A DNA stretch of 32,740 bases from Chitinophagaceae bacterium (GTDB lineage: Bacteria; Bacteroidota; Bacteroidia; Chitinophagales; Chitinophagaceae). A program made the translations under genes and the position numbers. Positions 2,017 through 12,598 of this stretch are shown one piece after another. The first letter of the stretch is position 1. The number at the start of each line of letters is the position of its first letter. The notes beneath the pieces are model-generated. The model did no database searches, was not told the DNA's origin, and worked only from the letters and a program-made list of their open reading frames with translations. The stretch spans positions 1 through 32,740 of the forward strand of contig JAICZH010000033.1 in NCBI GenBank assembly GCA_025933775.1, in the 5' to 3' direction.

Positions 2017-3507
2017 ATGTCAAAATATATTTTATCATTCGACCAGGGAACTACCAGCTCACGTGCTATTATTTTTGATAAACACGGCGCAATAAAAGCA
2101 GTAGCGCAAAAAGAATTTACACAAATATTTTCTCAACCCGGTTGGGTAGAGCATGATGCAAATGAAATCTGGTACACACAATTGAGCGTTGCTACAGAAG
2201 TGATTTTAAAAGCAGGGCTCACCATTCATGATATAGCTGCCATTGGCATTACTAACCAAAGAGAAACGACTGTAGTATGGGACAGACACACGCAACAACC
2301 AATTTATAATGCTATTGTATGGCAGGACAGGCGTACATCTGCGTATTGTAATGAATTAAAAAAATTAAACTATGCTGATAATATTCAGCAAAAAACGGGA
2401 CTTGTTATTGATGCATATTTTTCTGCAACAAAACTAAAATGGATTTTAGATAATGTATCGGGTGCAAGAGAAAAAGCAAACAATGGCGATTTATGTTTTG
2501 GAACAATTGATACATGGCTTTTATATAAACTTACTAACGGGAACGCACACACGACAGACGTTAGCAACGCATCACGAACAATGTTGTTTAATATTCATGC
2601 ATTACAATGGGATGAAGAATTATTAAAATTGTTTGATATTCCTGCATCCATATTACCCGAAGTAAAATCGAGCAGCGAAGTGTATGGATATACTGAAGAA
2701 ATATTTACAGCAAATAAAATTCCCATCAGCGGCATTGCGGGAGACCAGCAGGCAGCGCTTTTCGGGCAGATGTGTATGAAGCCGGGCATGGTAAAAAATA
2801 CTTATGGTACCGGCTGTTTTATGCTGATGAATACAGGAGATAAACCAGTGTTAAGTAAAAATAATTTGCTTACAACCATTGCATGGAAAATTAATAATGT
2901 AACAACGTATGCTTTGGAAGGCAGCGTATTTATTGGCGGCGCTGTTGTGCAATGGTTGCGTGATGGATTAGGAATTATTAAAACTTCTGCTGATGTAGAA
3001 ACATTGGCAACATCAGTTAATGATAATGGCGGCGTTTATTTTGTTCCTGCATTTACAGGGCTTGGAGCGCCCTATTGGAACCAGTTTGCAAGAGGCACAA
3101 TGGTGGGCATTACTCGCGGCACATCAGCAGCGCACATTGCAAGAGCATCTATTGAAAGTATTGCATTGCAAACAATGGATGTATTGCATGCAATGAATGA
3201 AGATGCATCTTTGCCGATTACAGAATTAAGAGTGGATGGCGGCGCAACTGCAAATGATTTATTAATGCAATTTCAAAGCGATGTATTAAACTGCAAAGTG
3301 ATTCGTCCGAAAATTACTGAGACAACTGCATTAGGCGCTGCATATCTTGCAGGGCTTGCAATTGGTTTCTGGAAAGACATTGCAGAGATTGAAAATTATT
3401 GGGAAGCAGAAAAAAATTTTATTCCAAATATGAATGAAAAAGACAGGCAAAAAGAAATTCATCAATGGAAGAAAGCCGTTAATGCAGCGCAGATCTGGGC
3501 GGGTTAG
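2017..3507 (+). CDS. glpK: Glycerol kinase
   Basis: [15 protein letters not shown]-terminus, [60 protein letters not shown]; full-length FGGY kinase. Confidence 0.98.
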
Positions 3508-8382: not shown

Positions 8383-8682
8383 TTATTCATATTTATTTCT
8401 TTTTGGATTTTGTTTTGATTCAAACAGTGCCAAAATAATGACCTCATTATTTTGGACCCGGTAATAAATTTTATTATGTTTTGTAATTGTAAGTTTACGA
8501 ATGTGTTTATTTTTCGCAATTGAGCTGCCTATTTTGGGATTAATAGAAAGACTATTAATTTTTGAATCCAAAATTGATTGAAATTTTTCGGAAGATTTAA
8601 TTCCCCATTCTTTTTCAATATAAGTTTGAACCCTAAGTACGTTATGTAAAAATTCTTTACTCTTTCTTATTTTGTACGCCAT
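8383..8682 (-). CDS. RelE/ParE-superfamily toxin-like protein
   Basis: 99 aa; LSINPKIGSSI...IRKLTITKHNKIYYRVQNNEVIILALFESKQNP typical of the ParE/RelE fold; overlaps an upstream acidic small ORF. Confidence 0.82.
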   Translation of the reverse strand: MAYKIRKSKEFLHNVLRVQTYIEKEWGIKSSEKFQSILDSKINSLSINPKIGSSIAKNKHIRKLTITKHNKIYYRVQNNEVIILALFESKQNPKRNKYE

Positions 8683-8918
8683 CTGGCAGTTGCTTTTAAA
8701 TATTCTTCCTCTGAAATAAATTCTCCTGCATCCACCTGCCTTATGGCTTCTTCCAATTGTTTTTCCTGTTCTTCAGTTAATTCATCATCCTCTTCAGTCT
8801 CCGATTCTTTTTTAAGATAAGAAGCTACATCTTCATGAACGATCATTAATGTTTCTTCATCATTGATGTTGTCAATATATTCATGAAGTTCTTTTTTTAT
8901 TTCTTCAAATGATTTCAT
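8667..8918 (-). CDS. Putative cognate antitoxin (small acidic protein)
   Basis: MKSFEEIKKELHEYIDNINDEETLMIVHEDVASYLKKESETEEDDELTEEQEKQLEEAIRQVDAGEFISEEEYLKATARWRTK; 16-nt overlap with the toxin ORF. The track start at 8960 lies inside a repeat, so Met at 8918 is preferred. Confidence 0.75.
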   Translation of the reverse strand: MKSFEEIKKELHEYIDNINDEETLMIVHEDVASYLKKESETEEDDELTEEQEKQLEEAIRQVDAGEFISEEEYLKATARWRTK

Positions 8919-8950
8919 AAAAAAATGTTTTATCAAATTTACAATTTTGA

Positions 8951-9031
8951 TTTCACGCAAAGAAGCAAAGAAGATAAAGTCGCAAAGAAGTTTTTTTGCA
9001 ACTTGATTTATCTTAGCGCTTTTGCGTGAAA
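8951..9031. repeat. 81-nt imperfect inverted repeat with TTTCACGCAAA termini (GCAAAG-type)
   Basis: TTTCACGCAAAG...AAGATAAAGTCGCAAA...TTTGCAACTTGATTTATCTT...CTTTTGCGTGAAA; arms pair over most of their length. Confidence 0.8.
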
Positions 9032-11676: not shown

Positions 11677-12306
11677 TCAATAAGAAAAAGCAGTCGTAAT
11701 AATATTTTTTATTTCTTCCCAATTTTTAGTATAAGGTGGAAAACCATCAATATCCGGATCATTTTCTGCATCTTCAAAATATAAAATGCTGCGCCATAAA
11801 AAAATCAGTTGTGTTTCATCATATTTTTGCGTAAACCATTCAATCAGTTTTTCGCGGCTATAAAGCTGCAGCAGTGCATAGACATCAAAAAAATCTTTTT
11901 TCTTTCCTCTTCCGCAAATAGTGTGCAATTTCATGGCAGCTATATCTTTCACACTAAAATAATTTATACCATCCATAACAATAAATGATTCCAACAAAGA
12001 AGCAGGCTCATTTACAAAATCGCATTTTATATCATTTATATCCCCAAACAACATCCTGGAATTATTAGCCCTATATTTAAAAGTATAATCATTGCTTGTT
12101 GATAATACAATTTCTAATTCTTTAACATCAAACTCATTCGGATTAAAAATATCCAGGTCAATAGATTTACGATGTCCTATTTGCAGAGCCAACGAAGTGC
12201 CACCGGCTAGAGCAAAATTATTTTTTATGAGTGCAGTTTTAAAAATTTTTTGCAACAGCTCATATAAAACAGGATCAACTGTAAAAAGATGAAGCATGCA
12301 ATTCAT
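11677..12306 (-). CDS. AbiEii/AbiGii-type nucleotidyltransferase (toxin-like)
   Basis: ALAGGTSLALQIGHRKSIDLDIF (NTase motif) and VKDIAAMKLHTICGRGKKKDFFDVYALL. Alternative Met at 12297. Confidence 0.88.
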   Translation of the reverse strand: MNCMLHLFTVDPVLYELLQKIFKTALIKNNFALAGGTSLALQIGHRKSIDLDIFNPNEFDVKELEIVLSTSNDYTFKYRANNSRMLFGDINDIKCDFVNEPASLLESFIVMDGINYFSVKDIAAMKLHTICGRGKKKDFFDVYALLQLYSREKLIEWFTQKYDETQLIFLWRSILYFEDAENDPDIDGFPPYTKNWEEIKNIITTAFSY

Positions 12307-12598
12307 TTATAGGTATCTTAAAATAATGACTGCAAAAATTTATCGTTTTTTTATCAAGCGTTTTACTTTTTTTTACAGCGTCCGTTATTTCTTCGGAAGT
12401 ATAAAGTTGCAGTAAAAAATAAAAATCGGCCAGCAGCCCGCGGCTTAGTACTCTTTCAATAATATAATCTTTATGCTTTTCAATATCTATTTTTTCAATT
12501 GAAGTATCCCAAAATAAATTTTGGGAAAAAGGAAAACTGTTTTTATCTATTTTTTTTGAAAGAATGTTTTCAGAAAGATATTTAAAAAAGAAGTTCAT
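12275..12598 (-). CDS. Small partner protein overlapping the AbiEii-like gene (DUF6922-like by recollection); candidate antitoxin
   Basis: FPFSQNLFWDTSIEKIDIEKHKDYIIERVLSRGLLADFYFLLQLYTSEEITDAVKKSKTLDKKTINFCSHYFKIP; coding overlap of about 23-32 nt with the downstream NTase. Confidence 0.75.
   Translation of the reverse strand: MNFFFKYLSENILSKKIDKNSFPFSQNLFWDTSIEKIDIEKHKDYIIERVLSRGLLADFYFLLQLYTSEEITDAVKKSKTLDKKTINFCSHYFKIPINELHASSFYS

Follow-up and report, generated by a model that had tools for sequence, protein, structure and literature searches.

Two overlapping reading frames

On the minus strand of the window, by which we mean the whole stretch of 32,740 nucleotides that was analysed, two open reading frames overlap, as a preliminary description of this DNA had reported. 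The first encodes a protein of the DUF6922 family and the second a nucleotidyltransferase (NTase) of the AbiEii/DUF1814 type (Table 1). Each gene is present in one copy in the 3.25-Mb draft genome, which belongs to Bacteroidota and probably to Chitinophagales.

Table 1. Coordinates of the two genes and of their overlap, with the roles proposed for them
Feature	Position	Strand	Evidence
DUF6922 protein, 107 aa, proposed antitoxin, operon gene 1	12275..12598	-	PF21956 E=2.3e-19, residues 24-74
AbiEii/DUF1814 nucleotidyltransferase, proposed toxin	11677..12306 (209 aa) or 11677..12297 (206 aa, preferred)	-	PF08843 E=1.5e-15
Overlap of both frames	12275..12297 (23 nt), or 12275..12306 (32 nt) from first ATG	-	sequence

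The NTase frame has two candidate start codons, the first ATG at 12306 and a second at 12297, from which the product begins MLHLFTV. In the alignment of relatives the conserved start reads MLxxxTV, and we prefer the second ATG because it is aligned with the start of nearly all of them. As the NTase probably starts there, the likely overlap in the window is the shorter one, which is also found in the close relatives L025, L058 and L059; L058, a Chitinophagales MAG, is the nearest relative of the window locus with a named record. Upstream of the pair, the search for a promoter or operator gave sigma-70 and Bacteroidetes-type patterns not above chance and only AT-rich inverted repeats.

The downstream protein reaches 58.2 bits against PF08843 (Pfam, curated cut-off 22.5), and the two AbiEii-type motifs quoted in the preliminary description, GGTSLALQIGHRKSIDLDIF and RGKKKDFFDVYALL, are present in the frame, bearing out the assignment made there. 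PADLOC gave moderate AbiEii matches (best E=2.8e-8), and an NCBIfam scan found no family. The PF08843 match is one at superfamily level, and neither the nucleotide nor the target can be predicted from sequence. AbiEii motifs I-IV have been defined as hG[G/S]...DhD with an arginine in motif II, K...R in motif III and +DxxD in motif IV (PMC3985639). The window NTase has GG32-33, R43, D47-x-D49, K123...R130 and K134-D135-x-x-D138; across 69 aligned sequences there is no variation at G33, R43, S45, D47, D49, K123, D135 or D138 and very little at G32, R130 and K134, all motif residues being invariant or at least 90% conserved. The toxicity of AbiEii is abolished by G49A, G49A/G50A, R63A, D67A, D69A, K173A, R180A and D192A (PMC3985639). 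The spacing from lysine to arginine in motif III is the same in both proteins (7; K173-R180 in AbiEii, K123-R130 in the window), whereas motif I is 13 residues from the first aspartate of motif II in the window NTase and 15 in AbiEii.

The active site can also be aligned with those of the MenT toxins. By motif and spacing, the window NTase matches the quartet T39/D41/K137/D152 of MenT1 and R76/S78/K189 of MenT3 (PMC10435456, PMC11375011), and the distance from lysine to aspartate is 15 residues, as in MenT1 (K137-D152; mutants in PMC10435456). In this sequence-based mapping, S45 takes the place of T39 in MenT1 and S78 in MenT3, the residues that are phosphorylated in these toxins (PMC11375011). 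The AlphaFold2 model of the NTase has a pLDDT of 97.4, and the solved folds nearest to it are JHP933, MenT1 and MenT4, with other NTases ranking next; the aminoglycoside nucleotidyltransferase ANT(2'')-Ia is also among the matches of the fold search. MenT1 chains are matched at Foldseek E=1.2e-5 to 5.6e-4. JHP933 from Helicobacter pylori J99 (4o8s, 4ok0) is the nearest solved NTase (profile E=0.003, fold E=4e-7), with about 17% identity to the window protein. The intact motifs, and the confident model with NTase folds nearest to it, make it very likely that the enzyme is catalytically active.

The preliminary description had likened the upstream partner to DUF6922 and had seen no AbiEi sequence in it. 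The name was right: the 107-aa protein reaches 69.1 bits against PF21956 (Pfam, curated cut-off 27). None of the Pfam, NCBIfam and PADLOC scans matched an AbiEi or winged-helix family in it, NCBIfam giving a negligible match only and PADLOC none. Its AlphaFold2 model (pLDDT 83.7) is all-helical, and since it has no strands, the protein is not predicted to be a winged helix. Alignment by hhalign with the AbiEi-type partners of ordinary AbiEii loci gave a probability of 0.3% (E=0.23), and on this result and the strandless model we rejected, for the window gene, a classical AbiE with a divergent AbiEi. A fold search of the PDB with the DUF6922 model returned nothing at E<=0.001, from a library that includes the MenAT1 complex chains (8an5), and no solved sequence relative was convincing. 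The most conserved residues are F29-W30-D31, R49, G54, Y66 and L81. A likeness to Pumilio/PUF proteins was confined to a single short stretch below threshold and was dismissed.

Linkage of the two genes

An alignment of the NTase was scanned against 84,980 species genomes, which yielded at least 578 relatives, and the best 80 were analysed. A DUF6922 frame lies directly upstream and on the same strand in 79 of these 80 loci, a figure that describes this NTase subfamily and not AbiEii at large, since the query consisted of NTases linked to DUF6922. At the 80th locus, L133, there are only about 160 bases of contig ahead of the NTase match. A stricter count omits L063, L064, L105 and L126, in which the NTase frame is open further upstream; DUF6922 ends near the NTase match in these too (offsets of 2, -46, 1 and -37 nt, respectively). 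In L095, L115 and L117 the best DUF6922 match is another copy, and a second DUF6922 adjoins the NTase. With order and strand recurring in this way, and the genes nearly always overlapping or abutting, the overlap in the window is not accidental. The preliminary description had made the idea of a different antitoxin class depend on the recurrence of the pair, and the pair does recur.

At ordinary AbiEii control loci of Bacteroidota, DUF6922 was found in none of 30; partners were displayed for 14 of them, most being AbiEi-like. A tree of 53 NTases splits the 12 controls from the 41 others at a supported branch (97/94), with some long branches unsure. Pairwise distances of NTase and DUF6922 are correlated (Mantel r=0.74, 0 of 2000 permutations). 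Pairs also occur outside Bacteroidota, in Verrucomicrobiota, Pseudomonadota, Chlorobiota, Cyanobacteriota and others, largely on MAG contigs that are possibly misbinned.

The overlap measures exactly 46 nt in 57 of the 80 loci (56 by the stricter count, plus L064). The third codon positions of the NTase carry 0.73 bits inside this 46-nt overlap versus 0.22 bits outside it, and this higher information shows that both frames are constrained and that the DUF6922 frame is genuinely coding. An overlap of fixed length, with both frames conserved over a broad taxonomic range, is unusual for unrelated proteins.

On the other side of the pair, DUF6922 occurs in 20 of 248 Bacteroidota genomes (26 places). 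Within the window's family, 58 of 150 genomes have it, and an NTase match, broken in a few cases, lies just downstream at 27 of 30 loci. When both sets are taken together and the window is left out, the NTase is intact at 36 of 55 DUF6922 loci and broken or absent at 19; for this count L190 was taken as intact and L202 as split by a stop, both set by hand, and the two cancel out. Several loci that lack an NTase, such as L012, L015 and L026, seem to retain the first residues of a dead one after DUF6922. DUF6922 is absent at 0 of 79 NTase loci, as against 19 of 55 for a broken or absent NTase (Fisher p=5e-9), a one-sidedness that is partly due to ascertainment, because the NTases were chosen by similarity to intact DUF6922-linked NTases and the two sets were found differently. 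Loss of the NTase while DUF6922 survives is as expected of a harmful NTase with a protective partner.

DUF6922 as a module

DUF6922 also occurs as part of larger proteins. It is preceded by HTH_3 in L138 and L145, above cut-off, and in L004, where HTH_3 falls below the curated cut-off; the proteins of L002, L003, L022, L144 and L146 align over their full length with HTH-DUF6922 proteins. Plasmids of Bacteroides, Phocaeicola and Microscilla carry HTH-DUF6922/NTase pairs in the gene order of the window, and in the tree the NTases of these pairs fall with the window NTase, across the branch from the AbiEi-type group. The proposed antitoxin of these pairs has an N-terminal HTH (XRE/HigA-like by appearance), whereas the window protein has none; they are annotated merely as a 'helix-turn-helix' protein and an 'AbiEii/AbiGii toxin family protein'. 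In L012 (1462-2031), DUF6922 is followed by a C-terminal UPF0175, with the apparent dead NTase start in another frame, and the fusion is apparently an orphan antitoxin put to new use. The DUF6922 proteins of L005 and L007 share a stretch in their first 70 residues (VVHWKRF...YNTLNNYLSKKK in L005) that has no Pfam match and is perhaps a further DNA-binding head.

Judging by analogy, DUF6922 fused to HTH or UPF0175 looks like the neutralising module of two-domain antitoxins. AbiEi joins an N-terminal winged helix-turn-helix to a C-terminal domain that neutralises by itself (PMC3985639), and where DUF6922 has no DNA-binding domain it may be a minimal antitoxin, the equivalent of that C-terminal domain. 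On three viral contigs (L141-L143), a DUF6088/AbiEi-like protein upstream of an AbiEii NTase has a C-terminus that resembles DUF6922 (hmmsearch E=2e-4 to 7e-4; hhalign E=1.6e-4, probability 50%), and these proteins are a possible bridge between the DUF6922 and AbiEi-like antitoxin types. These matches only suggest that DUF6922 is homologous to the C-terminal domain of such proteins, and we keep the idea as a lead.

The Aquifex aeolicus plasmid ece1 (L147), a complete record, carries an 82-aa hypothetical protein (2290-2538) that overlaps an AbiEii-family NTase (2474-3094). Pfam does not recognise the 82-aa protein, which looks in its sequence like a divergent DUF6922.

Proposed function and alternative readings

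The pair in the window can be compared with several known systems. With AbiE, a toxin-antitoxin (TA) system of Streptococcus and Lactococcus of type IV, the type in which the two proteins make no direct contact, it shares motifs I-IV of the DUF1814 NTase, a bicistronic layout with the antitoxin first, and mobile copies. It differs from AbiE in that DUF6922, in which no AbiEi domain is detectable, stands in the antitoxin's place, and in its NTase, which has fewer residues (206, against about 300 in most of the Bacteroidota controls) and falls on its own branch of the tree. With MenAT1 (Rv0078A/B) and MenAT3 of Mycobacterium tuberculosis, it has the NTase fold and the catalytic quartet in common. 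Like DUF6922, the antitoxin MenA1 is short, is not an AbiEi and has no evident DNA-binding domain, but its 68 residues form a long helix and a short one (PMC10435456), whereas the roughly 100 residues of DUF6922 make up a multi-helix domain. No fold match between the two was found, and DUF6922 does not classify as a MenA1-like two-helix antitoxin. Pairings of DUF1814 NTases on record are COG5340-COG2253 and COG4861-COG4849 (PMC3985639), and the four MenA antitoxins belong to three independent families (PMC11375011), so that the antitoxins of DUF1814 toxins were already known to be diverse.

Together, the data suggest that the pair is probably a two-gene TA module, formed by a MenT/AbiEii-like toxin and an all-helical DUF6922 antitoxin. 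Within it, we are fairly confident that the NTase would be the toxin and DUF6922 the antitoxin. It is from known families that we infer toxicity, a tRNA target, direct contact between the proteins, a role for S45 and translational coupling, and on this analogy the following model can be proposed. The NTase would most likely extend tRNA, or a similar RNA, by nucleotides added at its 3' end and so stop translation; that the tRNA 3' end is the target seems somewhat favoured. DUF6922 would most likely bind the NTase and block it. It could do so by occluding the active site, or it could induce auto-phosphorylation of the conserved S45, in the way that MenA1 and MenA3 act on their toxins. That S45 phosphorylation is part of the control is conceivable, if rather uncertain. 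The overlapping genes would couple translation, with the antitoxin made first.

The preliminary description had proposed a role in abortive infection or defence, and the surroundings of the pair do not bear this out. In the window the pair is flanked by a YCF48-like frame and by a three-gene group (transglutaminase-, methyltransferase- and dehydrogenase-like, all by appearance), and its neighbours look like housekeeping genes. The right-hand genes (12855, 13736, 14301) tend to remain linked within the genus. The pair was found beside this group in none of 29 relatives, two of whose contigs are short upstream, and it is absent from 15-kb stretches around the group in three of the closest relatives; the left-hand window genes are likewise missing beside the group in relatives. 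Most of the 145 frames sampled next to related loci are housekeeping genes, and matches to any one PADLOC family number at most 4 of them, a count with no matched control set. On these neighbourhoods we favour a scattered, stand-alone, addiction-like module over a component of defence islands.

A second TA candidate lies 2.7 kb from the pair, where a frame for a ParE-type toxin (8383-8682, minus strand; PF05016, E=1.1e-7) overlaps by 16 nt a 97-aa frame of no known family (8667-8960, minus strand).

Relatives are also found in 8 records of the plasmid collection, in 2 of the phage collection and on 6 viral contigs, with DUF6922/NTase pairs on viral contigs including L138, L139 and L148. The latter would fit a unit that acts against superinfection, and AbiE, with its related NTase, confers phage resistance (PMC3985639). 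A phage-defence unit would be the same TA pair with the NTase freed on infection, and is compatible with the TA reading; given the neighbourhoods, and since plasmid and viral-contig copies are equally explained by addiction, we consider it rather unlikely. An obligate heteromer, too, would be expected to show strict co-occurrence and an overlap of fixed length, and linkage and catalysis would fit a non-toxic, two-subunit enzyme that modifies RNA or a metabolite, with DUF6922 as its structural or targeting subunit; ANT(2'')-Ia is, after all, among the fold matches. The patchy spread of DUF6922 in Bacteroidota and in the window's family, the frequent decay of the NTase, the HTH and UPF0175 fusions and the plasmid copies all speak against such an enzyme, which we regard as improbable.

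Reversed roles, in which a small helical toxin, DUF6922, would be modified by the NTase as its antitoxin, would follow the example of HEPN/MNT systems. DUF6922 is small and all-helical, as is HEPN, and the antitoxin of HepT/MntA is its nucleotidyltransferase (PMC7641770). The window NTase, however, is of the DUF1814 type, and the DNA-binding fusions are on DUF6922, not on the NTase. To our knowledge, the DUF1814-type NTases tested so far are toxins. The HEPN signature, RX4-6H, is present in just 13 of 70 DUF6922 proteins, which have no conserved histidine, and Pfam gave no HEPN match. With this motif missing, and with decay in the opposite direction (DUF6922 persists without the NTase, and the reverse is not seen), we rejected this reading as highly improbable.

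If the NTase is the toxin and DUF6922 its antitoxin, DUF6922 is probably a new kind of antidote to a known growth-arresting enzyme. The papers searched (most subscription journals and preprints being outside their scope) do not mention DUF6922, and its partnership with a DUF1814 NTase appears undescribed in them under that name. A more specific proposal joins several of these points: DUF6922 would be a self-sufficient neutralising domain of unsolved fold, an unrelated further way of checking DUF1814 toxins, which stands alone or is bolted to HTH, UPF0175 or AbiEi-like modules, forces auto-phosphorylation of S45, and has its C-terminal tail locked to the toxin N-terminus by the dual-coded overlap over a broad taxonomic range. 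Taken as a whole, this combination is doubtful.

How unrelated antitoxins control one NTase fold is an open question (PMC11375011), and NTase toxins of the DUF1814 group are widespread. With versions that have DNA-binding domains and versions that do not, DUF6922 offers a clean system in which to ask whether auto-phosphorylation of the active-site serine or threonine is the general means of control. The dual-coded 46-nt overlap is an unusual case of an overlap that has been kept across a broad taxonomic range. If the proposed role is true, an annotated antitoxin would take the place of a domain of unknown function that occurs in 20 of the 248 Bacteroidota genomes sampled and, within the window's family, in 58 of 150.
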